From contig JAKVBV010000017.1 in NCBI GenBank assembly GCA_022446965.1, forward strand, positions 1-51,491: a DNA stretch of 51,491 nt. The letters run 5' to 3'. The position numbers and the translations under genes were made by a program. Position 1 is the stretch's first letter; each line of letters begins with the position of its first letter. The stretch is from Phycisphaerales bacterium. Lineage in GTDB: Bacteria > Planctomycetota > Phycisphaerae > Phycisphaerales > SM1A02. The notes under the pieces were generated by a model that was not told the DNA's origin, made no database searches, and saw only the letters and a program-made list of their open reading frames with translations. Below, in pieces: positions 4,624 to 51,491 of this stretch.

Positions 4624-6500
4624 CAGGGTTCGGCGCCTTCAGCGGGCCGGTCCACCGTCGAGGGCAGGATGAATGGCGTCACCGGCAGGTCATCAGCGCC
4701 AATCAGATTGGCCGCGGCAGGATCCTGCCGCCAGCCGTAGCGCACACGCACGGGCGTCTCCACCGCCGCGGATGACGCCACCAGTCGATCGTCCAGCAGA
4801 CGTGCCGTGGCCGGATGGAACACCCCATCGGCGCCGGCCACTTCGAGCAGTGCCACCGGGCCGCCGTCGCGTGTCTTCAAACTGCCGCCGTATGTTTCAA
4901 ACTTCACTGCGATCGTCCCGTTGTCGAGAACGCCGAAGCTCACGGGCAACGGCCCTTGCGGCACGATGTCGCGGTGATACACATCGCGCAATGCGTGCCG
5001 GGCCAAACGTCGCCCCACCGTGCGTTTGTCGGTGGGATGAATGTCATGAGGGTCGCCCACGTCGAAGCACAAGGCCATGCCGGTGCCGTCCACGTCCAGC
5101 GCACGCCTCTGCGCCTCACGCAACTGGGGCCAGTGCCAATCGTGGCGTCCGTGGTCCAGATTGGCCAACTGCACGAAGTAGAAGGGCATGTCATGCCCGA
5201 ACCGTGCCCGCCAGTCGAGAATCATCGCGGGAAAGAGCACGTCGTAGGCTTCCGGATCGTGGGCGTTGGATTCGCCCTGATACCAGATCACACCGGCGAC
5301 GGGCAGACCCTCCAACGGTGCGATCATCGCGTTGTTGAGCACTGTGGGTGTGTTGCGGGCGGGCTTTGCCCAGCCTGACGTCTGCATCCATCGCCACGGA
5401 CCTGCCAGGCCAATCTTGTGTGCATCATCATCGGCTCGGTGCAGACGCATGTCACCACGCTTGCCGAAGAAGCCTCCTGCCCCGGCCATGTCGGTCGCCC
5501 GCACCCCGATCACGTGACGACCAGGTGTCACCATGTCTGCAGGCACCGTGTACGACCTCGGTGTGGTGTGCCCACGCGTGCGGCCGATCTCCACGCCGTC
5601 CCAGAATGTTTCGTCCAGATCGTCGATCGGTCCCAGCTGCAATGTCAGCGCTTGCCCACTCCACGATTCGGGCACCCAGATGGACAGGCGATACAGCACT
5701 GTGCCATCGACATCCCCCAGCCCCATCGAGGCCCAGTCGCCAGGCAACACCGTTTCGCTCCAGACTGCATCGTCGTGCTCGGGCCCCAGCAAGGCTGCAG
5801 CATCAACTTCGGCCTTGGCCTGCGCCGTGAACCAGTCGTCCACCGTGCGCGCCACCAGCGAATCATCCTGGCGCATGACGTCGAGCAGGTCACGATCCAT
5901 CCAGGCTTCCACGCTGGACCCACCCCAGGAAGAATTCACGATGCCCACGGGCACGTCGAGAGTGTCGTGCAGCATGCAGGCGAAGTTCCACGCCACACCG
6001 CTGAAGTGCGGCGTTTGCTGTGGTGTGGACACCTTCCACTGACCGACGACCGAACCTTGACGCTGCTCATCGTGGGCATGCGGCACCTTGAACTCACGAA
6101 TGTCGGCATTGCTGAAGGCTTCGTCGCCAGCGTCGCGGTCGTCGGTCTGAGACACACGCCATTCCATGTTCGACTGCCCCGAAGCCAGCCACAGCTCGCC
6201 GACGACGATGTTGCTGGCCGTCTTCGTATCCGAGCCGTCAGACACGGTGAGCGTGAGCGGTGTGCGTGATGCAAAGCGGGACGGCAGCCGCACCATCCAC
6301 GTGCCGTCTGGCGCGACCGTGACTTCATCCGCCGCGACGCCATCACCGTCAAGCCGAATCGACAGCGTGTCCCCCGGTTCGCCCGTACCCCACACTGGAA
6401 TGGGTGCCCGCTGTTGCAGCACGGCGTTGTCGCCGAGCAAGGGCGTGACCTCGAAGCCGCTCATGGCGGCCACACTCACGAGAAAAATCGACATGCTCAT
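4623..6500 (-). CDS. Sialate O-acetylesterase family protein
   Basis: A predicted exported carbohydrate esterase of 625 residues that should remove O-acetyl groups from sialic acids or other glycans. It has a short hydrophobic leader, an N-terminal beta domain (PLLGDNAVLQQ...PVWG), and the SGNH-type catalytic block with the nucleophile in LASGQSNMEW. The second family signature VIWYQGESNA follows, then a Gly/Asp/His-containing C-terminal region (GDPHDIHPTDKR) expected to supply the Asp-His pair. A beta-sandwich insertion (jelly-roll like, about 250-350) is normal for the family. AGGAG lies 10 bases before the start. It directly follows the DUF4145 gene (3 bases) and overlaps the next hydrolase gene. 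Confidence 0.92.
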   Translation of the reverse strand: MSMSIFLVSVAAMSGFEVTPLLGDNAVLQQRAPIPVWGTGEPGDTLSIRLDGDGVAADEVTVAPDGTWMVRLPSRFASRTPLTLTVSDGSDTKTASNIVVGELWLASGQSNMEWRVSQTDDRDAGDEAFSNADIREFKVPHAHDEQRQGSVVGQWKVSTPQQTPHFSGVAWNFACMLHDTLDVPVGIVNSSWGGSSVEAWMDRDLLDVMRQDDSLVARTVDDWFTAQAKAEVDAAALLGPEHDDAVWSETVLPGDWASMGLGDVDGTVLYRLSIWVPESWSGQALTLQLGPIDDLDETFWDGVEIGRTRGHTTPRSYTVPADMVTPGRHVIGVRATDMAGAGGFFGKRGDMRLHRADDDAHKIGLAGPWRWMQTSGWAKPARNTPTVLNNAMIAPLEGLPVAGVIWYQGESNAHDPEAYDVLFPAMILDWRARFGHDMPFYFVQLANLDHGRHDWHWPQLREAQRRALDVDGTGMALCFDVGDPHDIHPTDKRTVGRRLARHALRDVYHRDIVPQGPLPVSFGVLDNGTIAVKFETYGGSLKTRDGGPVALLEVAGADGVFHPATARLLDDRLVASSAAVETPVRVRYGWRQDPAAANLIGADDLPVTPFILPSTVDRPAEGAEP

Positions 6501-6503
6501 GTG

Positions 6504-7337
6504 TCAGGAACTCCTGTTCTCGTCCTGGCGATGGATCGATTCGGCAATGCGGCGCCGTTCGTCCCGATAGCCTTGTTCGGCCTCGCGAAAGGCTGCTTTC
6601 ACCTGATTGAACTGTGCTTCCGCCTCGGCCTTGGCCGTTTCGGCGGTGCGCCCCCATGCTGGCTGTTCCAGAATCTGCTCGACATCCATGGCCATGATGA
6701 TGGCCACGGTATCAGCATCCACCACCGGCTCACCCGCTGCGATCGCCACGGTTTCCAAGGCCTCGAGTTCGCCATGCAGACGAGCCGCCTGGGCGTCGAC
6801 CGCCTCGTGCTCACCGAACAACAACAGTGCATCGCGAGCACGCACACGCCTCGCCTCGATGGCGGCTTCGAGCATTTCGGCCTTGCGTCGAGCGTCGGCT
6901 TGCGGGTCCACCCCTGCCGGCGGATCCGGCGGTGTGAATTGTGGCGGCGCCACCTTGGCCCCCCGACGCACCATGCGGCAATACCACGCCGACAACCGAT
7001 GGGCGTCGCGCAGTCGCCGCATCGCACCTGGCGTGGTGGACGGCTCACCATGCACGGCAGCGTTGCCGTCGCGACGGATCGCGTGCATGCCGTCGGCCTG
7101 TTTGCGATCGAGCAGCCCGCTGCGCTGCAGCCCCTTGAGCATCGAGGCGAGATCGGTGGACACCAGATGCGGCAATTGCATCTCGATGAGCACCTTGGTC
7201 ATCACCTCGATCATCAATCGCAGCTTGAACAAGCATGCGTCGGGATCGTTGTACACGTAGTCCTCGGCCTGTCGGGCGAGTCGTCCCACGCGCGGATCGA
7301 TCTTGGCAAGGAAGTCGAAGTTGTGCGATTCGCTCAT
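6504..7337 (-). CDS. DUF4145 / HsdR N-terminal-like protein, stand-alone
   Basis: The first 120 residues resemble the N-terminal segment of type I restriction subunit HsdR (DUF4145). The pattern is NFDFLAKIDPRVGRLARQAE, then VYNDPDACLFKLR, then an LxxLxxxGLL helix and GNAAVHG. No nuclease, helicase or methyltransferase genes surround it. Residues about 125-277 are charged and helical, likely coiled coil. Its ATG overlaps the stop of the TerB-like gene (ATGA), so the two are probably co-translated. Length is 277 residues. It may be a nucleic-acid or ligand sensing module outside restriction. No enzymatic motif is visible, and the function is unknown. Confidence 0.7.
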   Translation of the reverse strand: MSESHNFDFLAKIDPRVGRLARQAEDYVYNDPDACLFKLRLMIEVMTKVLIEMQLPHLVSTDLASMLKGLQRSGLLDRKQADGMHAIRRDGNAAVHGEPSTTPGAMRRLRDAHRLSAWYCRMVRRGAKVAPPQFTPPDPPAGVDPQADARRKAEMLEAAIEARRVRARDALLLFGEHEAVDAQAARLHGELEALETVAIAAGEPVVDADTVAIIMAMDVEQILEQPAWGRTAETAKAEAEAQFNQVKAAFREAEQGYRDERRRIAESIHRQDENRSS

Positions 7338-7768
7338 TCGCCCTCCTCGATGTGAGGATCGGTCATGAGCCCCGCGATCACGCGGGCATTCACACAGCAG
7401 GCTTGGAACGACGTCTCATTCAACCCTGCAGCACTGGCGAGCATCGACGCCCATCGCACTTCCAGCGGATGCATCGATGCGTCGGCATAGGCGATGAGCA
7501 TGACGCCGGTCACGATGCGTGCAGCCTCCGCCTCGCCCATCGCACGGATCGATGCAAGACAGTCAACAAGCGTGCGGCTGCCGATCTGCTCGGGCGTCTT
7601 AGCGGCCAGACACAGTTCTTCGTCGAGACCAAGCATGGCGCGGCCGTACAACCCGGCCGTGGCTTCCCGAGATGGTTCGACATGGCCTCGGGCCACCGTC
7701 ATCGCGCGGGCGGCGAGAAACCAGGTGGTGGCCAGTTCCAGTTCGGTGTCGTCGTGTGGGCCGTTCAT
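7334..7768 (-). CDS. TerB-like small helical protein
   Basis: A 144-residue, mostly helical protein. The segment GVMLIAYADASMHPLEVRWASMLASAAGL fits the TerB/DjlA-type metal-binding helical domain, whose core is an acidic AD-x-x-hydrophobic-x-P-x-E motif followed by a helix. The rest has no recognisable domain. It overlaps the HAD gene upstream and the DUF4145 gene downstream by ATGA on both sides, so the three are translationally linked. TerB domains occur in stress and phage-defence contexts, but nothing else here shows such a role. The assignment rests on a short motif. Confidence 0.55.
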   Translation of the reverse strand: MNGPHDDTELELATTWFLAARAMTVARGHVEPSREATAGLYGRAMLGLDEELCLAAKTPEQIGSRTLVDCLASIRAMGEAEAARIVTGVMLIAYADASMHPLEVRWASMLASAAGLNETSFQACCVNARVIAGLMTDPHIEEGE

Positions 7769-8454
7769 GTGCCAGCTCGCCCATGGTCAGCCAGCAGTTG
7801 GGCAAACACGTCGGTGTTGAGTGCAGCCAGCGAATCCACCACCAGATCAGCCTCGGCCAAGGCGGCGCGATTGCGACCGCGCGAGGCCAGACCCACACAG
7901 GCCATCCCCCCACGATGTGCCGCCGTGATGCCGGAGGGGGCGTCTTCCACCACCACGCAGTCGTGTGGTGGCACGCCCATCAATGCCGCCGCCCGCAGGA
8001 AGGTTTCCGGATCAGGCTTGCCGTTGATCACGTCGGTGCGGCACACGGTCGCATCGAAGGTGACGCCCGCGCGGCTGAAGGCGTCCACCGACACCACGAG
8101 GTTCTCACGGGGCGTGGACGTGCCGATGGCGACAGGCCAACGGGCAGCGGTCAGCGTGGACAGCAACTCGACCGCCCCGGCCATGTAGGGATAGGCATCA
8201 CCAGCGATGGCCGCGCGAAAGCGCGTCTCTTTGGCGTCGGCGACGGCGTCGATCTGCGCCGCATCGGGCGCCGGCAGCCCGGCCCAGTCATGCAACTGTT
8301 CAATGATCGGCTCGTTGGCCCGACCAAAGAAGCCAGCGAATTCCTCGGTGGTCAGTGTATGCCCGAGATCAGTCGACACTGCGACAAAGGCGTCGAAGTG
8401 CGCATCCCACGAATCACTCAGGGTGCCATCGAGATCAAAAATGACCGCCGGCAT
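7765..8454 (-). CDS. HAD-superfamily hydrolase, beta-phosphoglucomutase/phosphatase-like
   Basis: A 229-residue cytoplasmic phosphatase-type HAD protein. Motif I is FDLDGTLSD near the N-terminus, the helical cap follows, motif II is IGTSTPRENL, motif III lies around INGKPDPETFLRAA and motif IV is VVEDAPSGITAAHRGG. This set fits the phosphoglycolate phosphatase / beta-phosphoglucomutase branch. The start at 8454 puts motif I at residue 5, as usual; a longer frame upstream would overlap the SRPBCC gene and lacks support. It is 2 bases from the SRPBCC stop and overlaps the TerB-like start. The sugar phosphate cannot be told. Confidence 0.88.
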   Translation of the reverse strand: MPAVIFDLDGTLSDSWDAHFDAFVAVSTDLGHTLTTEEFAGFFGRANEPIIEQLHDWAGLPAPDAAQIDAVADAKETRFRAAIAGDAYPYMAGAVELLSTLTAARWPVAIGTSTPRENLVVSVDAFSRAGVTFDATVCRTDVINGKPDPETFLRAAALMGVPPHDCVVVEDAPSGITAAHRGGMACVGLASRGRNRAALAEADLVVDSLAALNTDVFAQLLADHGRAGT

Positions 8455-8456
8455 GC

Positions 8457-8903
8457 TCAATCCTTGGCGGCGGCCGCCGCGGCGAGATCGGCAAAATCCT
8501 TCGCGATCAAGTTGCGCATCATCGGCTTCATCAGCCACCCCACTGGGATCATGATCCAGGCCATGATCGTGACAGGCCGCGTCACCATTTCCATCTCAAC
8601 CAACGTGCCTTCCCCCTGAGGAATGAACCGCTGCGTGGTGCGAAAGGCCGAACCGCAGGAATTGGACTCCAGCGTGAAGTGGTGCGGCGGTTCGAACTGG
8701 GTGAACCACATTTCTTCGGTAGCTTCCTTCTTCATGAGGATCCGGGTTTCGCGGAACTTGGTGCCCACGCCGATCGGGCCGTCAGTGAGCACTTCGGTCT
8801 TTTCGATCCCGGACACATGTTCGGGCCACGACGGCACGTCGGTCGCCATGGCGAAGAACACATCCGGCGGGGCATCCATGTAGTGCTGAAGGAACAGGCG
8901 CAT
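8457..8903 (-). CDS. SRPBCC (START/polyketide cyclase-like) protein
   Basis: A 148-residue protein with the SRPBCC ligand-binding fold. The N-terminal strand-helix MRLFLQHYMDAPPDVFFAMATDVPSW and the pattern of alternating strands ending in a long C-terminal helix are typical of the polyketide cyclase/dehydrase family. A central hydrophobic stretch (MAWIMIPVGWLMKP) is longer than usual. It is first in a six-gene operon (SRPBCC, HAD, TerB-like, DUF4145, sialate esterase, hydrolase). TAGCCT lies exactly 6 bases before the ATG, so the mRNA is probably leaderless. The ligand is unknown. Confidence 0.8.
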   Translation of the reverse strand: MRLFLQHYMDAPPDVFFAMATDVPSWPEHVSGIEKTEVLTDGPIGVGTKFRETRILMKKEATEEMWFTQFEPPHHFTLESNSCGSAFRTTQRFIPQGEGTLVEMEMVTRPVTIMAWIMIPVGWLMKPMMRNLIAKDFADLAAAAAAKD

Positions 8904-8909
8904 GCCCTC

Positions 8910-8915
8910 AGGCTA
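8910..8915 (-). promoter_or_regulatory. Probable leaderless -10 element (SRPBCC operon)
   Basis: On the minus strand TAGCCT is followed by six bases (gagggc) and then the ATG at 8903. The spacing equals that seen before nrdR, thrS, dacB, moaE, acpS, glyA and the cupin gene. This would place the transcription start on the start codon. Confidence 0.55.
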
Positions 8916-8997
8916 GCACCCCATGCCCCAACGCGTCGCGTGAGGCCGCCTTGGCCACCTGCACAAGCATTCGATCACGGCTGACTTCTGCGGGCTA

Positions 8998-9168
8998 CAG
9001 ATCTGGCGCCTCCAGTCGAAATCGAGCATCGCCCGCGGCATCGAACTCCATCAGGCCCCACCCGGTGGGAATCTCCGATCGACGCAGCCACAGTGCCGCC
9101 TTGCGTTTGAGCCAGCGATGACGAGAAGACTCCACGTCCGGCACTTCGTCCGGCGCAGTGGTCCCGGT
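8998..9168 (-). other. Coding-like segment in frame behind the rnc stop
   Basis: Directly after the rnc TGA (9171-9169) the same frame stays open for 56 codons to a TAG at 8997-8995. The translation looks like real protein: RHRWLKRKAALWLRR, then EIPTGWGLMEFDAAG, ending RLEAPDL. There is no ATG near its start; GTG codons at 9144 and 9135 are the only early candidates. It could be a small gene, a pseudogene remnant, or a former C-terminal extension of RNase III cut off by a nonsense codon. I do not recognise the family. The remaining bases up to 8904 show nothing. Confidence 0.4.
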
Positions 9169-44267: not shown

Positions 44268-44297
44268 TTGATCTCCTAGCCGCAGGCGTGGTAGTGT
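44268..44297 (+). promoter_or_regulatory. Promoter of the respiratory operon
   Basis: TTGATC (44268-44273), 18 bases, TAGTGT (44292-44297). The inverted repeat GTGTCAG-N15-CTGACAC (44294-44322) overlaps the -10 and the predicted transcription start and could be an operator. The leader is about 50 bases, with GGGGAG 7 bases before the GTG start of ctaC. Confidence 0.55.
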
Positions 44298-44354
44298 CAG
44301 CCCCGGCAATCGACTCTGACACCACCGTCAGGGCCAATTGCGGGGAGATCGCTG

Positions 44355-45434
44355 GTGCGCCAGATCGCCGCACGAGAAGGAAGCGTTGCACTGTTCGCCA
44401 CCCTCGCGGCGACATGCGTGGCTCCGGCTCTCACCGCTGCGCTGGTCTGTGACCCATCCCTCCCGCTGCACTCGGGCACCCCCAGCATGTTCGATCCACG
44501 CTCGGCGCCGGCCGAGATGATCCTCGACATCACGTGGCTTGTGATCGCCATCTGCGCCGTGATCTTTGTCGTCATGGAAGGCCTCATCATCTGGGCCATC
44601 ATTCGCTATCGGGCCAAGCACGCCCGCGATACGGCAGGCGACACCGGCGAACCGCCGCAGGTCTACGGATCCAATCCCATCGAACTGGCATGGACCGTGA
44701 TCCCCCTGCTGATCGTGTTCGTGCTCTTCTTGGTTTCCGCTCGCGGCATCTTCGAGATCGACAAGCAAGAGCCCCCGCCGGGTGCATTGGAAGTGCGGGT
44801 GGTGGGCCACCGCTGGTGGTGGGAGTTTGACTACGGCGACCTCGGCTTCTCGACTGCCGCTGAACTGCACATCCCGTTGACCAAAGACGGGCAGCCCCAA
44901 TCGGTATTCCTCACCCTCGAGAGCGCCGATGTCATTCACTCCTTCTGGGTGCCACAACTGGGCGGCAAGAAGGACGTGGTGCCCGGCCGCACCAACTACC
45001 TGTGGCTGCAGCCACGAGAGACCGGCCGCTTCGTGGGGCAGTGCGCCGAGTACTGCGGCGCCCAACATGCCGGCATGCTTATCAACGTCGTCGTCCACGA
45101 AGAGGACGACTTCAATGCGTGGGTCGCCAACCAACAAAAACCAGCACACGACGATCCTGCAACCGCCGACGGCCGCGATCTGTTCCTGTCCACCGCCTGC
45201 ATCAATTGCCACACCGTGCGCGGCACCGTGGCCAACGGCACGTTTGCGCCCGATCTCACCCACCTGATGAGCCGAAGCGTGCTGGGCTCGGGCGTCATCG
45301 CCAACACGCCTGAACACCTACGGGCATGGGTGTGGGATCCCCAAGACGCCAAACCCGGCTGTGACATGCCGGCGATGAAACTCACCCGTGAAGACACAGA
45401 CCGCATCTGCGCCTGGCTGGAGACCCTGCATTGA
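44355..45434 (+). CDS. ctaC: Cytochrome c oxidase subunit II with fused cytochrome c domain (caa3 type)
   Basis: Subunit II receives electrons at the CuA centre. The 359-residue protein has a signal segment, two transmembrane helices (about 60-84 and 112-130), the aromatic stretch HRWWWEFDY and the CuA ligands His195, Cys230, Glu232, Cys234, His238 and Met241 (CAEYCGAQHAGM). After residue 265 a cytochrome c domain follows with CINCH and a distal Met, so electrons can enter from soluble or membrane cytochrome c. The start is GTG with GGGGAG 7 bases upstream. The stop overlaps the ctaD TTG start. Confidence 0.95.
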   Translation: MRQIAAREGSVALFATLAATCVAPALTAALVCDPSLPLHSGTPSMFDPRSAPAEMILDITWLVIAICAVIFVVMEGLIIWAIIRYRAKHARDTAGDTGEPPQVYGSNPIELAWTVIPLLIVFVLFLVSARGIFEIDKQEPPPGALEVRVVGHRWWWEFDYGDLGFSTAAELHIPLTKDGQPQSVFLTLESADVIHSFWVPQLGGKKDVVPGRTNYLWLQPRETGRFVGQCAEYCGAQHAGMLINVVVHEEDDFNAWVANQQKPAHDDPATADGRDLFLSTACINCHTVRGTVANGTFAPDLTHLMSRSVLGSGVIANTPEHLRAWVWDPQDAKPGCDMPAMKLTREDTDRICAWLETLH

Positions 45435-47089
45435 GCTCGTCACCAGTCAGGCCCGATCTCTCCCCGCCGCTGTCGCGCCTGCACGAGTGGGTGGTGACGG
45501 TGGACCACAAGCGTCTGGGTGTGATGTACATCGTCACAGGCTTGGTGTTCTTCCTCATCGGCGGATTTGAAGCCGCCATGATGCGATGGCAGCTGGCCTG
45601 GCCGGGCCTCGACATCGTGATGCCCGAAGACTTCAACCGATTGTTCACGATGCACGGCACCACCATGGTGTTCCTCGTGGGCATGCCCATCCTCCTGGGT
45701 AGCGCCAACTACCTCGTGCCCCTGATGATCGGCACACGGGACATGGCCTTCCCCCGCCTGAACGCCTTTGGCTTCTGGCTGTTCTTCTTCGGCGGCGCCC
45801 TGCTGTACTTCTCGTACTTCGGCGCACAAGGCTTGTACGGCATGGGCAGCGCCCCCGATGTGGGCTGGTTCGCCTACGCCCCGCTCACCGAACGCACGTT
45901 TTCGCGCGGCCACAGCACCGACTATTGGATCCTCGGATTGATGGTGTCGGGCTTTGGCTCCATCGCCACGGGCATCAATCTTGTCACCACCATCCTGTGC
46001 ATGCGCTGCACGGGCATGCGGCTCATGAAGATGCCGCTGTTCGTGTGGATCATGTTGGTCGACGCCATCCTCATCGTGGTCGCCATGCCACCGCTTGCCG
46101 CAGCCCAGGTCATGCTGCTGTTCGACCGGTCACTGGGTGCACACTTTTTTGATGTGCAAGCAGGCGGCTCAGCAGTGCTCTGGCAGAACCTCTTCTGGTT
46201 CTTCGGACACCCCGAGGTGTACATCCTCATTCTGCCGGCATTTGCGTTTGTCTCCGAGATCATTCCCGTGTTCAGCCGCAAGGTGCTGTTCGGGTATCCA
46301 CTGATGGTGGCCGCCACGGTGACCATCGGCTTCATCTCGATGGGTGTATGGGTACACCACATGTTCGCCATCGGCCTGAGCCCGGCGGTGAACACGTTGT
46401 TCATGGCCAGCACCATGCTCATCGGCGTGCCCACGGGCATCAAGATGTTCAACTGGGTCGCCACCATGTTCGGCGGCCGCATCCGCCTGCACACGCCGAT
46501 GCTGTTCTCCATCGGCTTCCTGGCCCAATTCCTCTTCGGCGGGCTCACCGGCGTGATGCTGGCCGTCGTGCCCTTCGACTGGCAGGTGAGCGATTCCTAC
46601 TTCGTGGTGGGCCACTTCCACTACGTGCTCTTTGGTGGGTTGATCTTCTCGATCTTCGCAGCCATCTACTACTGGTTCCCCAAGGTCAGCGGACGAATGC
46701 TGAGCGAAGCACTGGGCAAGTGGCAGTTCTGGCTGCTGCTCATCGGCTTCAACCTCACGTTCGGGCCGATGCACGTCTCAGGCATGCTCGGCATGCCCCG
46801 CCGCATCTACACCTATCAGCTTGATCGTGGCTGGGAGATCTGGAATCTGCTCAGCTCGATCGGCGTGCTGTTCCAAGCACTCGCCATCGCGTTCTTCATC
46901 TGGAACGTGATCCGATCGCTGCAGCGTGGCACGCCCGCCGGCGACGACCCATGGGACGCCTGGACACTGGAATGGAGCACCACCTCGCCGCCACCGGCCT
47001 GGAACTTCGACACCGACCCTGAAGTGCGCAGCCGTCGCCCACTGTGGGATGCCAAGCACCCTGACGATCCAGATTGGAAGTACGAATGA
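45431..47089 (+). CDS. ctaD: Cytochrome c oxidase subunit I
   Basis: The catalytic subunit that reduces oxygen at the haem-CuB site. The 552-residue protein has about twelve transmembrane helices. Ligands visible are His75 (MHGTTMVF), His260 with crosslinked Tyr264 in GHPEVY, His309-His310 (VWVHHMFA), and His395 and His397 (GHFHYVLFGG). The Glu in GHPEVY marks the A1 class proton path. The start is TTG, overlapping the ctaC stop (TTGA). It is coupled to ctaE. Confidence 0.97.
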   Translation: MSSSPVRPDLSPPLSRLHEWVVTVDHKRLGVMYIVTGLVFFLIGGFEAAMMRWQLAWPGLDIVMPEDFNRLFTMHGTTMVFLVGMPILLGSANYLVPLMIGTRDMAFPRLNAFGFWLFFFGGALLYFSYFGAQGLYGMGSAPDVGWFAYAPLTERTFSRGHSTDYWILGLMVSGFGSIATGINLVTTILCMRCTGMRLMKMPLFVWIMLVDAILIVVAMPPLAAAQVMLLFDRSLGAHFFDVQAGGSAVLWQNLFWFFGHPEVYILILPAFAFVSEIIPVFSRKVLFGYPLMVAATVTIGFISMGVWVHHMFAIGLSPAVNTLFMASTMLIGVPTGIKMFNWVATMFGGRIRLHTPMLFSIGFLAQFLFGGLTGVMLAVVPFDWQVSDSYFVVGHFHYVLFGGLIFSIFAAIYYWFPKVSGRMLSEALGKWQFWLLLIGFNLTFGPMHVSGMLGMPRRIYTYQLDRGWEIWNLLSSIGVLFQALAIAFFIWNVIRSLQRGTPAGDDPWDAWTLEWSTTSPPPAWNFDTDPEVRSRRPLWDAKHPDDPDWKYE

Positions 47090-47727
47090 GCGCCCTGCCC
47101 GCACATGACATGCCTCCGCTGGCCCGAACTGGCAATCTCCCCCGGGGCAAGCTGGGTGTGCTGCTGTTGATCCTCTCGGAGGTGTTCTTCTTCGGCACAC
47201 TCATTGCCGTGTACGTGTTCTACATCGGACACCACACCGGCGGACCAACCCCGAAGGACGTGTTCGACGCCCCCCTGAGCGGCCCCACCTGGCAGCCGCT
47301 GGCGGTGTCTTTCAATTCGGTGTTCCTGCTGGTCAGCAGCCTGTGGATCGTGCTGGCCCACCGCGCCTTGTGCCGCGGCGCCACGACAGCCTTCGGCTTC
47401 TGGTGGTTGGCCACGTTCGCCTGCGGCAGCGTGTTCCTCGCCGGCACCGCCAACGAATGGCACGGGCTCATCATGGATGACGGACTGTGGATGGGCACCA
47501 ATCTCTTCGGGTCGTGTTACTACACACTCGTCGGATTCCACGCCCTGCACGTGACCGCCGGCCTCACGATCATGGCCATCGTGTTCGTGCTCACGCTCGC
47601 GGGCAAGATGCACCAGCGGCATGCGGGCAAGATCGAACTGCTCAGTTGGTACTGGCACTTCGTCGACGCCGTGTGGATCGTGGTCTTCACCATCGTGTAC
47701 GTGATCGGTTGGTGGGGCGCCGCATGA
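47086..47727 (+). CDS. ctaE: Cytochrome c oxidase subunit III
   Basis: A 213-residue membrane subunit with five helices. Typical segments are KLGVLLLILSEVFFFGTLIAVY, LAGTANEWHGLIM and FHALHVTAGLTIM followed by SWYWHFVDAVWIVVF. It stabilises subunit I and assists proton uptake. The start at 47086 overlaps the ctaD stop (ATGA), and its stop overlaps the next start (ATGA). Confidence 0.95.
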   Translation: MSALPAHDMPPLARTGNLPRGKLGVLLLILSEVFFFGTLIAVYVFYIGHHTGGPTPKDVFDAPLSGPTWQPLAVSFNSVFLLVSSLWIVLAHRALCRGATTAFGFWWLATFACGSVFLAGTANEWHGLIMDDGLWMGTNLFGSCYYTLVGFHALHVTAGLTIMAIVFVLTLAGKMHQRHAGKIELLSWYWHFVDAVWIVVFTIVYVIGWWGAA

Positions 47728-48548
47728 CGACACACGACCACCAACGCATCGAACTGCCTGCGCCGTGCACGGGGCCAATGCTCTGCGCCTTCGGTATCAC
47801 CCTGGGCTTCGCTGGCATCGTCACCAGCTGGCCCGTGGCCGTGGTGGGCGTGATCTTTGCCCTGGCCGGGGGGGTGCACTGGTGGCGTCAGGTGCTGCCC
47901 GATCCGGTGGAGATCACACCCGACATCACGGTGCATCCAACCCCGATCGAACCGCGCCCCGAGCGTGTGGCCAAATTGACCACGCATCGCGCCCACCGCG
48001 CCCGTGTACCGCTGGAAATCCACCCCTACTCCGCGGGAATCACCGGCGGGCTCATCGGGGGCCTGGTGATGGCGGCGGTCGCGCTCACCGGCAGTTGGCT
48101 GGAGCACGGCAGCATCTGGTTCGCCATCAACGTGATGGCCGGCACCGCGATGCCATCTATTGGTGACATGTCCACCGAAGGACTCCTCGCCTACGACGCC
48201 TCGGCCATGATGACCGCGGGCACCATGCAATTGGTGTTGTGTCTGTTCATCGGCCTGCTCTACGGCGTCATCATGCCACTGCTCCCCCGCTGGCCCGTGG
48301 TGTGGGGCACCCTCATCATTCCCGCCGTGTGGTGTGGGCTCATGCTGGCCGCCATGAGCGTAGTCAACCCTGCACTGGAGACGCACATCGATTGGACATG
48401 GTTCATTGGCGCACAGGTCGCCTTTGGTCTTGTCTGCAGTGTGTGGGTGGTGCGGGCAGAGAAGATCGACACCATGCAGCACTGGTCCTACCTCGAGCGA
48501 CTGGGCATGGAAGCGCCAGGCGTGCAGCCCGAGGAGGATGACGAATGA
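47724..48548 (+). CDS. Unknown membrane protein of the oxidase operon
   Basis: A 274-residue protein with about seven predicted transmembrane segments (two near residues 16-52, then from about 100 on, such as GGLIGGLVMAAVALTG and LVLCLFIGLLYGVIMPLLP). It lies where a small subunit IV (ctaF) gene is usually found but is far longer and not recognisable as CtaF. A hydrophilic loop with several His and Arg residues (about 65-95) faces one side. It is coupled by ATGA to ctaE and to the cytochrome c gene, so a structural or assembly role in the oxidase or bc complex is likely. Confidence 0.7.
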   Translation: MTTHDHQRIELPAPCTGPMLCAFGITLGFAGIVTSWPVAVVGVIFALAGGVHWWRQVLPDPVEITPDITVHPTPIEPRPERVAKLTTHRAHRARVPLEIHPYSAGITGGLIGGLVMAAVALTGSWLEHGSIWFAINVMAGTAMPSIGDMSTEGLLAYDASAMMTAGTMQLVLCLFIGLLYGVIMPLLPRWPVVWGTLIIPAVWCGLMLAAMSVVNPALETHIDWTWFIGAQVAFGLVCSVWVVRAEKIDTMQHWSYLERLGMEAPGVQPEEDDE

Positions 48549-49261
48549 TCCGCCGCCTCTTCATGGTGCTGTGTGGCAGCGGCGTCGTGGCCTTGGCCGC
48601 CTGCGACTGGATGCCAGGCCGACCGGAGCGCCCGACCGTAGATGCCCACGCGCCGACCATGGCGTTCGAGCCGTTGTGGAACACCCACTGCGCCGGGTGC
48701 CACGGCGCCAACGGCCGTGATGGCGCCGCACGGCCACTGAACGACCCGCTGTACTTGTCGCTTGCCGATGACCACTGGCTGCACATGATCACCACGCACG
48801 GCGTGGACGGCACCTTGATGCCGGCCATGGGCACGGCTGCAGGTGGACCGCTGACGCCAGCACAGATCACGGTTTTGATCGAAGGCATGCACGACCACTG
48901 GGGCGGCGCCGCCCTTCAAACAGCGCCGCCACTGCTGGGTGAGCTGGGCGCCGCAGACGCGGGCGCAACCGTGTTCGCCAGCCACTGCGCAGCATGCCAC
49001 GGCGATGACGGCACCGGCGGTCATGGCGCGGGCTCGGTGGTGGACACCAGTTTCCTCGCCCTGACCAGTGACCAAGCACTTCGGATCGCTGTGATCTGCG
49101 GTCGCATCGATCTGGGCATGCCGCCATTCGATGGCCGTCGAGGCCTGCCCCCACTCACCGATCAACAGGTGTCCGATGTCGTGGCCTGGCTCGCCGCGCA
49201 CCGCGTGGCCCATCCGGGCGCTCCCTACCCGGCGGTCACGTCGCAAGGGGCGCAGCCATGA
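48545..49261 (+). CDS. Dihaem cytochrome c lipoprotein
   Basis: A 238-residue exported cytochrome with lipobox VALAAC (Cys20), so anchored by lipid. Two c-type haem sites are present, CAGCH and CAACH, each followed by a Met that could be the distal ligand (LMPAMG and LGMPPF). It sits between oxidase and bc genes and is the natural electron carrier between the Rieske/cytochrome b complex and the caa3 oxidase. It is coupled by ATGA on both sides. Dihaem c proteins replace cytochrome c1 in several bacterial bc complexes. Confidence 0.9.
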   Translation: MIRRLFMVLCGSGVVALAACDWMPGRPERPTVDAHAPTMAFEPLWNTHCAGCHGANGRDGAARPLNDPLYLSLADDHWLHMITTHGVDGTLMPAMGTAAGGPLTPAQITVLIEGMHDHWGGAALQTAPPLLGELGAADAGATVFASHCAACHGDDGTGGHGAGSVVDTSFLALTSDQALRIAVICGRIDLGMPPFDGRRGLPPLTDQQVSDVVAWLAAHRVAHPGAPYPAVTSQGAQP

Positions 49262-49815
49262 CCGTCCACCTGCCCCAACGCGACGCTCCAGATCTGAAAC
49301 AACTGGGCCCCGGCCCCGACCCGCAACCCTCACGCCGCGGCGTGTTGTTCTGGGCGGGTGCCGCGCTCAATGGCGTCGCCGCCGTGGCGATCGGCATTCC
49401 GGTGGTCGGCTATCTACTGGCACCCTTTGCCAGCTCAGGCCGCAAGCAATCGTGGGTGGCCTTGGGCCATGTCGACGAGTTCCCCGAAGGTCACACCACG
49501 CTTGGTGAGTACGTCAACCCGTTCACCACACCGTGGGACGGCTACACCGCAAACACCCCGTGCTGGGTGAAACGCGACGCAGGCGACGCGTTCACCGTGT
49601 TCGCCATCAACTGCACGCACCTGGGCTGCCCGGTGCGGTGGTTCCCCGAATCGAGCTTGTTCATGTGCCCATGTCACGGCGGGGTCTACTACGCCGACGG
49701 GTCACGTGCCGCGGGCCCGCCCCCGCGCGGGCTGTACACCTACGAGACGCGCATTCGCAAGGGCGTGCTGGAGGTCAAGGCCGGGCGATTGCCCACCTTG
49801 CAGCAGACGCCATGA
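49258..49815 (+). CDS. Rieske iron-sulfur protein
   Basis: The Rieske subunit takes one electron from quinol in the bc complex. The 185-residue protein has an N-terminal SRRGVLFWAGAALNG segment, with a twin-Arg pair and a transmembrane helix (TAT-type export), then the [2Fe-2S] motifs CTHLGC (Cys119, His121, Cys124) and CPCHGG (Cys137, Cys139, His140). Cys124 and Cys139 form the usual disulfide. It overlaps the neighbouring genes by ATGA on both sides. Confidence 0.95.
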   Translation: MTVHLPQRDAPDLKQLGPGPDPQPSRRGVLFWAGAALNGVAAVAIGIPVVGYLLAPFASSGRKQSWVALGHVDEFPEGHTTLGEYVNPFTTPWDGYTANTPCWVKRDAGDAFTVFAINCTHLGCPVRWFPESSLFMCPCHGGVYYADGSRAAGPPPRGLYTYETRIRKGVLEVKAGRLPTLQQTP

Positions 49816-51266
49816 TCCGCGCCACCACCAGATCGGTGTACGACTGGTTCGAGGCCCGACTGGGTCTCGAGAAGACGCTCGGCCCGTCGCTCACGCACGC
49901 CGTGCCACAGAGCGCCAAGTGGTGGTACGTGTTCGGCTCCATGACCATGCTGCTGTTCATGGTGCAGGTCATGACCGGCATCTGCCTGTCGATGGTCTAC
50001 GTCCCCAGCGCCGACGAAGCCTACGCATCGCTCGAATACCTCACCTACGACCAGCAGATGGGCTGGTTCCTGCGCTCGCTCCACGTGTGGGGATCACACC
50101 TGATGATCGCGATGATGTCGATCCACATGCTGCAGGTGTTCCTGTTCGGGGCGTACAAGTTCCCCCGCGAACTCACCTGGATCGTGGGCGTGCTGTTGTT
50201 CGTATGCACCCTGGGCATGGGCTTCACCGGACAGGTGTTGCGTTGGGATCAAGACGCGTACTGGGGCATGGGCGTGGGCATGGCCATGGCTGGCCGGGTG
50301 CCGGTGATCGGCCCGGAAATCGTGCACCTTGTGCTTGGCGGCCCCATCATCGGCGGCGAATCGCTCTCACGCTTCTTCGCCCTGCACGTGTTCATCATTC
50401 CCGGCACACTCATCGCGCTACTCGGCGTGCACCTGCTGCTGGTCGTGAAGTGCGGCATCAACGAACGCCCCACGCCCGGCGTGCTGGTGGACAAAGCCAC
50501 GTACCGTGAGACCTACGACCGCGAAGTGCATCGCCGAGGCATGCCGTTCTTCCCCAACGCTGCCGGCCGGGACATGATCGCGTGCGGGCTCACGCTCACC
50601 GTCCTGTTCGTGTGTGCCATGATGTTCGGCCCTGCCGGACCCAACGGTCGGCCTGATCCGATGTTGATAGACACCGCCCCGCGACCAGACTTCTGGTTCC
50701 AGTCGATCTTCGCCGTGCTCGCACTGTTGCCGCCCTACATGGAGACCTTCCTGATCCTCGGTTTCCCCCTGCTGGCGGGCGCCGTGCTCATTCTGTTGCC
50801 GTTTCTCTCCGGCGACGGCGAGAAGCACTGGAAGCGTCGTCCCATGGCCGTGCTATTCGTCTCCGTGCTGTTGGTATCGCTGGGGTCGCTCACCTGGCTC
50901 GCCTATCAATCACCTTGGTCACCAGTGATGGACGCCTGGAGCGCGCTGCCCACGCCTGCACAATACGTCAAGGGACGATCACCGCTGGCCCTGCAGGGCG
51001 CGATCGTGGTGCAGAACAAACAGTGCCGCAATTGCCACGCCCTTGATGGCCAAGGTGGTCGTCGGGGCCCGGCGCTCGACGGCGTGGCCTCACGCCTCAA
51101 CAGCGACCAGATCATCCGACAGGTCATTCAAGGCGGCGGCAACATGCCCGCCTACGGGCAGCACCTCACCCCCGCCGAAACCACGGCGGTCACGGCCTTC
51201 CTCATGACGCTGCACGATCAGTGGGAACACGAACCCGCCACAGGCCGTAGGACACCGCGAGACTGA
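49812..51266 (+). CDS. Cytochrome b (fused b6 and subunit IV) with C-terminal cytochrome c domain
   Basis: The quinol-oxidising membrane core of the bc complex. The 484-residue protein has a b6-like N-terminal half with haem ligands His91, His105, His192 and His207; the 14 residues between the last pair are as in b6 rather than bc1. The subunit-IV half contains PRPDFWFQSIFAVLALLP at the Qo site, where bc1 has PEWY. After the last helix a cytochrome c domain follows (CRNCH, then GNMPAYG as distal Met), so quinol oxidation and a c haem are in one chain. It is coupled to the Rieske gene (ATGA). Confidence 0.94.
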   Translation: MIRATTRSVYDWFEARLGLEKTLGPSLTHAVPQSAKWWYVFGSMTMLLFMVQVMTGICLSMVYVPSADEAYASLEYLTYDQQMGWFLRSLHVWGSHLMIAMMSIHMLQVFLFGAYKFPRELTWIVGVLLFVCTLGMGFTGQVLRWDQDAYWGMGVGMAMAGRVPVIGPEIVHLVLGGPIIGGESLSRFFALHVFIIPGTLIALLGVHLLLVVKCGINERPTPGVLVDKATYRETYDREVHRRGMPFFPNAAGRDMIACGLTLTVLFVCAMMFGPAGPNGRPDPMLIDTAPRPDFWFQSIFAVLALLPPYMETFLILGFPLLAGAVLILLPFLSGDGEKHWKRRPMAVLFVSVLLVSLGSLTWLAYQSPWSPVMDAWSALPTPAQYVKGRSPLALQGAIVVQNKQCRNCHALDGQGGRRGPALDGVASRLNSDQIIRQVIQGGGNMPAYGQHLTPAETTAVTAFLMTLHDQWEHEPATGRRTPRD

Positions 51267-51273
51267 CGGCGCC

Positions 51274-51491
51274 ATGGCCGAGCTTTTGCACGCTGTCTTC
51301 GTCATCGACGCGTGGTCGTTCGACCCCGTGGTGATTGCCGGACTGCTGCTGGCGGCGGTGTGCTACACACGAGGCTGGCTGGCACTGCGCCGCACACAAC
51401 CCGGACGCATTTCTGGTTGGCGCTGGTGCAGCTGGCATGCCGGATTGGCCACCATCTGGTTCGCGTTGTGCAGTGGGCTTGATCCCTTGGG
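51274..51491 (+). CDS. CtaG-like cytochrome oxidase assembly protein, 3' end outside window
   Basis: The first 72 residues of a multi-pass membrane protein of the caa3-type CtaG family. Typical features are the opening AWSFDPVVIAGLLLAAVCYTRG and WHAGLATIWFALCSGLDPL. Members assist copper insertion into oxidase in Gram-positive and related bacteria. It begins 7 bases after the cytochrome b stop, in the same operon. Truncation by the window prevents a full check. Confidence 0.8.
   Translation, partial: MAELLHAVFVIDAWSFDPVVIAGLLLAAVCYTRGWLALRRTQPGRISGWRWCSWHAGLATIWFALCSGLDPL

Follow-up and report, generated by a model that had tools for sequence, protein, structure and literature searches.

A bc-caa3 operon in a Phycisphaerales bacterium: a probable quinol-oxygen supercomplex with a candidate split subunit III and two operon versions

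The eight genes at the right end of contig JAKVBV010000017.1 of a Phycisphaerales bacterium (assembly GCA_022446965.1) all run in the same direction, from ctaC to a ctaG-like gene, and join a caa3-type oxidase to a cytochrome bc complex. The entire contig of 51,491 nucleotides, C22 in the numbering used here, is referred to as the window; the assembly has 2.24 Mb in 112 contigs and is 97.3% complete. The operon probably encodes a bc-caa3 supercomplex that would pass electrons from quinol to oxygen through its own c haems, with no diffusing carrier, an association that is read from the genes. The genes, their cofactor motifs, the conservation of their order and the co-variation of their parts are observed directly.

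Conservation of the operon

The order of the genes is conserved far beyond chance. An operon-type cytochrome b is present in 28 of the 101 genomes of the family comparison, the window's genome included (26 full length and two cut by contig ends), and all 28 are in one family. The neighbourhoods of these 28 have the seven core genes from ctaC to cytochrome b in order in 22 cases, one with a shortened ctaC. Five of the remaining six are cut by contig ends, and the sixth (G029, locus L060) has a shorter version of the operon. The oxidase and bc genes are adjacent in every family genome with enough contig.

A wider contig scan for relatives of the cytochrome b is biased to near relatives, because only the best 80 of 586 were kept. 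The seven genes are in order in 61 of these 80 loci, and a contig end truncates 18 of the remaining 19; the sole order violation listed, in L102, is due to a stray cytochrome c match. The carriers are, by their record titles, Planctomycetota, Acidobacteriota, Verrucomicrobiota, Myxococcota/Deltaproteobacteria and Rokubacteria, although some titles are doubtful and a few read merely 'bacterium'. L131 and L137 are both titled Singulisphaera; L137 is apparently a family-mate of the window and its title is probably wrong. The 28 family loci, the 80 wider-scan loci and a further set of 18 loci overlap (e.g. L037/L070). That the bc genes are chance neighbours of the oxidase is rejected, because the gene order is kept across several phyla, and the single operon claimed by a first-pass annotation of the sequence is borne out by this comparison of neighbourhoods.

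The CtaG gene is less fixed than the core genes, being on the same strand in 74 of the 80 loci. There is no CtaG behind cytochrome b in the 4.4 kb checked in L109 or the 10 kb checked in L113, and in L108 it is 8.5 kb away from cytochrome b. Matches to the dihaem cytochrome c have two CxxCH motifs in 74 of the 80, one in four and three in two (L102 being the stray match). The 4-base overlaps seen in the window are partly conserved: with gene starts picked by script, they are kept at ctaC/ctaD in 4/23, ctaD/ctaE in 4/26, ctaE/unnamed gene in 6/25, unnamed gene/dihaem in 18/25, dihaem/Rieske in 13/25 and Rieske/cytochrome b in 10/27.

Layout in the window

The coordinates of the eight genes (Table 1) agree with the first-pass annotation in their order, in the 4-base overlaps at each of the six junctions between ctaC and cytochrome b, and in the seven bases before CtaG. 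Its four c-type haem sites are also present, as CxxCH at residue 282 of CtaC, residues 49 and 148 of the dihaem protein and residue 405 of cytochrome b. The lipobox-like Cys 20 of the dihaem protein is invariant in 25 sequences. Pfam assignments agree for all genes except the unnamed one, which has no Pfam or NCBIfam family; the CtaG fragment scores 25.6 bits against a cut-off of 27.7 in Pfam and has no NCBIfam match. NCBIfam otherwise bears out ctaC and ctaD and, for the remaining genes, the broad type, with most scores under its thresholds. A regulatory scan found no σ70-like promoter site, and 8 terminator-like sites where 3.4 would be expected.

Table 1. Genes of the bc-caa3 operon in the window and the features located in them
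Gene	Product	Coordinates	Strand	Located features	Assignment
ctaC	Oxidase subunit II, CuA domain and C-terminal cytochrome c, caa3-type	44355..45434	+	GTG start, the 87 bases before it being leader; CxxCH 45198-45212	Pfam COX2, Cytochrom_C
ctaD	Oxidase subunit I, A1 type (FFGHPEVY)	45431..47089	+	TTG start	Pfam, NCBIfam
ctaE	Subunit III lacking the first two helices	47086..47727	+		COX3 profile 77-257 of 258
Unnamed gene	Two-helix part resembling COX3 transmembrane helices 1-2, then 4-helix membrane domain	47724..48548	+	Two-helix part 47724-47915; 4-helix domain ~48015-48467	
Dihaem cytochrome c	Dihaem cytochrome c with lipobox-like N-terminus	48545..49261	+	CxxCH 48689-48703 and 48986-49000	Pfam
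Rieske	Rieske iron-sulfur protein	49258..49815	+		Pfam, NCBIfam
Cytochrome b	Cytochrome b6, subunit IV and cytochrome c in a single chain	49812..51266	+	PDFW 50685-50696 (residues 292-295); c domain ~50979-51221; CxxCH 51024-51038	Pfam, motif alignment, predicted model
CtaG	CtaG-type assembly factor, start only, cut by the contig end	51274..51491	+		Pfam, just below cut-off

In near relatives the CtaG gene is ~775 amino acids (aa) long and encodes a fusion of CtaG with a NapH-like part that has ferredoxin-type Cys motifs (for example in L036, ~5593-7917 on the minus strand). The fusion may combine copper delivery with a reductase in a single assembly factor.

The unnamed gene and subunit III

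When a profile of 69 relatives of the unnamed protein was compared with the PDB, 14 of the 15 matches were to COX3, over its first 65-75 residues, with a best expectation value (E) of 4.8e-4. The 14 are mutually related and so count as one result. CtaE lacks this very part, the first 75 or more positions of the COX3 profile being absent in 10 of the 10 examined (the window's CtaE and those of 9 among the 71 loci that have the gene). The AlphaFold model of the unnamed protein (mean pLDDT 87.8) begins with two helices, which a linker connects to a 4-helix domain. On this moderate COX3 match, the gene looks like the missing first two subunit III helices of CtaE with a 4-helix domain fused to them. 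Subunit III is known in 5-helix and split forms, as described in PMC4013037, and in Mycobacterium smegmatis CtaE and CtaF together are a split subunit III through which complex IV makes its main contact with QcrB of complex III, as described in PMC8361435.

The 4-helix domain has no clear match in Pfam, NCBIfam or the structure searches, the last with the whole-protein model as query; one relative has a weak DUF6789 match in this domain (E 0.012). The unnamed protein is present in 26 of the 101 genomes, in G029 over the two-helix part only, and all 26 have the cytochrome b. In the two cytochrome b genomes without it (G042, G053) the contigs end there.

Cytochrome b and its quinol-oxidising site

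In 122/122 cytochrome b sequences (112 after removal of near-identical ones) the four haem b His, the CxxCH, Met 445 and the Pro-Asp of the quinol-oxidising (Qo) site are invariant, and the haem b His are 14 residues apart in helix B and 15 in helix D. The latter is the b6-type spacing recognised by the first-pass annotation and is shared with the b6f and Firmicutes b6-type complexes. Classic bc1 complexes have 14 residues between the helix D ligands, and the bc1 signature of a 14-residue step with PEWY at Qo is not found in the operon's cytochrome b. A true b6f-type cytochrome b with haem ci is rejected as well, since the position aligned with the haem ci Cys in helix A of b6 is V in 112, I in 9 and T in 1, and is Cys in 0 of the 122. 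The protein scores 119.5 bits against a cut-off of 500 for the QcrB family NF050120 and is not a member. Its predicted model (mean pLDDT 79) matches solved cytochromes b and its c domain matches c6-type cytochromes.

The Qo motif PDFW, taken by the first-pass annotation to set this protein apart from classic bc1, is present but does not distinguish it alone, nor is it unique to the window protein: the motif varies widely in relatives, and M. smegmatis has PDFY and Corynebacterium glutamicum PDVY at the same place, as given in PMC8361435. As a small control, other cytochrome b loci of the same order have PEWY in four of seven (L063-L066; the pattern was unmatched in L067-L069). In L042 (8995-10845) the cytochrome b reads as 616 aa, with an extra sequence inside the c domain that falls between the parts matching residues 6-447 and 441-483.

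Two versions of the operon

A search for the shorter version, confined to Planctomycetota, covered 392 genomes, 26 of which match the profile of the unnamed protein: 12 at full length, 13 over the two helices only and one (G154) weakly. The two-helix-only proteins are ~70-90 aa long where the start is clear, and in an hhalign comparison they align with the N-terminal part of the long protein (probability 98%, E 8.7e-14). The 13 short operons examined (L176-L187 and L060; G143 was left out) all have ctaC, ctaD, ctaE, CtaG, the two-helix gene, Rieske and cytochrome b. The hidden Markov model listing missed ctaE in L176, L177 and L179, but tblastn found it in all 13. Within 3 to 8 kb on each side of the short operons there is no match to the dihaem gene or the 4-helix domain; L180, L184 and L185 have a ~890-aa frame with two CxxCH, which is of a different kind from the dihaem protein. 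In long operons the dihaem gene and the 4-helix domain are both present wherever the contig reaches them.

The two versions also differ at the Qo site, where PDWY is found in 13/13 short operons versus 4/107 long ones. The long version mostly has PD followed by FY, FF, FW, YF, FA, YP and others, and with near-identical sequences removed the Trp of the third place is kept in 6 of 99. The version could not be assigned for L102 (PDFA) or for L044 (PDWY), a family member cut by a contig end that is placed among the long versions in the tree. In this tree (FastTree, midpoint root only, several inner supports low) the short version is a single clade with a support of 1.0, and the earliest branches of the long version are sequences with PDWY or PDWE (supports 0.949 and 0.968). 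Because each version forms about one clade, the Qo contrast represents few independent events. With the root assumed, the tree hints at a joint arrival of the dihaem protein and the 4-helix domain, in about one event, with a later relaxation of the motif.

Other respiratory genes of the genome

The genome has one PF00033 cytochrome b and two subunit I genes. The second of these is part of another quinol-to-oxygen operon, L005 (G000:C69:30000-46000), which combines alternative complex III (ACIII) with an A2-type caa3 oxidase in the genes NrfD-like, ActD, cytochrome c, SCO, ctaC, ctaD, ctaE and COX4. It follows the same quinol-to-oxygen logic with another family of quinol-oxidising proteins (NrfD-like, ActD). 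The CtaD of the window has FFGHPEVY and the second CtaD FYSHPAVY, the motifs of the A1 and A2 types, respectively. ActD is found in 89 of the 101 genomes, and 26 of the 28 genomes that carry the bc operon have it; in G035:C188 (the L054 region) the bc-caa3 operon and an ActD gene are ~15 kb apart on one contig.

PF00034 and PF13442 have 9 matches each in the genome. Outside the two oxidase operons these are in a 399-aa protein (C30), a 557-aa frame (C36) and frames of 914-1224 aa (C39, C50, C75), and with these two models no small stand-alone class-I cytochrome c was found in this 97.3% complete genome. The suggestion of the first-pass annotation that no soluble cytochrome c would be needed fits this result as far as the two models go. 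The protein on C30 (L195, 778-1977, minus strand) has an N-terminal helix anchor and an extra C-terminal part, and is a possible additional carrier.

Proposed electron path and alternative explanations

From these observations we infer a physical complex, an order of electron transfer, a role for the 4-helix domain and independence from a soluble carrier. Quinol oxidation would take place at the Qo site, where cytochrome b and the Rieske protein meet, with one electron returning over the two b haems to the quinone-reducing (Qi) site. The other would pass from the Rieske cluster to the c haems of the complex, those of the cytochrome b c domain and of the dihaem lipoprotein (no order is implied), then through the c domain of CtaC to CuA and on to haem a/a3-CuB, where oxygen would be reduced. 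The unnamed protein would fill in the two subunit III helices missing from CtaE, like the mycobacterial CtaF, and its 4-helix domain probably helps to keep the dihaem protein, or else the bc part, in contact with the oxidase.

Several points weigh against this proposal. It is drawn from sequence rather than biochemistry, and a shared operon is no proof of a shared complex. In one Rokubacteria locus, L081, the one true exception among the 80, no ctaC or ctaD was found ahead of ctaE; transport genes stand in their place, and a CtaB-like frame lies between ctaE and the unnamed gene (labels read from the frames). The first-pass annotation had held that relatives with oxidase and bc genes apart would refute a supercomplex, and this is the only such locus, the other complete loci having them together. 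The genome also encodes the membrane-anchored cytochrome c on C30 and the larger c-type proteins. As to subunit III, single unnamed proteins have no Pfam COX3 match, and an 8-sequence profile of the short two-helix protein gave no COX3 in the PDB, only two unrelated weak matches. The first seven Foldseek matches of the model are chains of oxidase structures that fit subunit III by letter and length, with E of at least 0.08; two of these, 9w2z and 6hu9, were named as subunit III in the PDB profile search. VIA gave Z ~5.8 for COX3 chains and for chain S of 6hwh, which is presumed from its length to be CtaF, no higher than for unrelated helix hairpins.

The products might instead form separate, co-expressed complexes in balanced amounts, connected by a diffusing or membrane-anchored cytochrome c, with the dihaem lipoprotein as a mobile shuttle. 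A lipoprotein anchor would allow the dihaem protein to diffuse in the plane of the membrane, the anchored cytochrome c on C30 could be another carrier, and in Acidobacterium capsulatum electrons are described as passing via cytochrome c to a caa3 oxidase (in PMC11636273). That the gene order is kept over several phyla, that the short version keeps the bc genes beside caa3 with no dihaem-like gene within 3 to 8 kb, and that subunit III appears to be split as in an obligate supercomplex all argue for the joined form, which leaves the separate complexes with a low but appreciable probability.

It has also to be considered whether the unnamed protein is outside the oxidase, as an assembly factor or an unrelated membrane protein. 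It has no Pfam or NCBIfam family, and its four extra helices are without a clear fold match. This is nevertheless considered unlikely, as its N-terminal COX3 match is to the part that CtaE lacks and the two-helix form stands alone in the same neighbourhood in 13/13 short operons. In addition, L188 (G154, ~8344-9162), an oxidase cluster with no bc gene detected, has a weak two-helix match directly before ctaE. Finally, the many c-type domains in the genome could mean that the bc part feeds other acceptors, such as c-type ones, and that the operon is a historical accident, which is highly improbable given that the oxidase and bc genes are adjacent wherever the contig of a family genome is long enough.

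Comparison with known systems

Neither the arrangement nor the idea of a supercomplex is new, since both were described in Acidobacteria by Trojan et al. 2021 (PMC8407424). There the A1 caa3 genes are described as always upstream of the bc1 genes in a 'superoperon', found in further phyla also, and the A2 caa3 genes as being with ACIII; supercomplexes that bypass soluble carriers are proposed as the products. In the window, too, A1 caa3 genes directly precede the bc genes on one strand, and the same genome has an ACIII-A2 caa3 operon. The acidobacterial strain TAA 166 of that paper, which by its name appears to be L098, has the same seven genes in the same order; the host here differs in being one of the Phycisphaerales. 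The supercomplex suggested by the first-pass annotation is therefore already published as an idea, and the gene order, the four c haems and the apparently split subunit III fit it, with the association itself taken from the genes. The text of PMC8407424 consulted here makes no mention of a split subunit III, a 4-helix domain, a shorter version or Qo changes.

The closest parallel in build is the bcc-aa3 supercomplex of Actinobacteria (M. smegmatis, C. glutamicum), which shares the dihaem cytochrome c beside Rieske and cytochrome b, PDxx at the Qo site and a subunit III split into 5-helix and 2-helix parts, the 2-helix part here resting on moderate E values. In contrast to the actinobacterial system, here CtaC carries a c haem and the cytochrome b has its own c domain and is far from QcrB. 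Actinobacterial CtaC is not known to carry a c haem. Since the cytochrome b is outside the actinobacterial QcrB family, the likeness in layout may be convergent. The bcc complex of Firmicutes has the layout QcrA-QcrB-QcrC. It shares with the window a b6-type cytochrome b and a c domain behind subunit IV, whereas here these are in a single chain without the haem ci Cys and with an added dihaem protein.

A 2024 survey of Phycisphaerae reports the bc1 complex in no Phycisphaerales genome (in PMC11266412). The operon does occur in this order. It is supposed that canonical bc1 models miss cytochrome b of the window type, given its score of 119.5 bits against 500 for the QcrB model. In the open full-text literature available (main texts, with Qo surveys covered through reviews), the operon in Planctomycetota, the unnamed gene and a link between Qo motif and operon form are not treated. 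As far as seen, then, the interpretation of the unnamed gene, the shorter operon, the Qo contrast between the versions and the occurrence in Phycisphaerales are new.

Implications

The same gene order is now seen, by record titles, in Planctomycetota, Verrucomicrobiota, Myxococcota and Rokubacteria besides Acidobacteriota, and a gene without a family name gains a testable identity. Some carriers have culture-like strain names (Edaphobacter modestus DSM 18101, E. lichenicola and Granulicella sp. S156) and are apparently in culture, so that the supercomplex idea is open to direct test. The two operon forms, with and without the dihaem cytochrome and the 4-helix domain and differing in Qo motif, are a natural experiment.

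It is possible, although tentative, that this is a second, independently built obligate III-IV supercomplex. The starting point would have been a simple form in which a bc complex with a single fused c haem was paired with a caa3 oxidase and a small two-helix protein. From this a lineage would have gained the dihaem wire simultaneously with a docking domain of four helices, the latter fused to the split subunit III. Residues 3 and 4 of the Qo motif, usually strongly conserved, would then have been freed while the Pro-Asp stayed fixed. If so, the dihaem subunit, split subunit III and changed Qo site would represent convergence with the actinobacterial supercomplex, and would hint at what role the motif's Trp and Tyr have in a complex that is wired directly to its oxidase.

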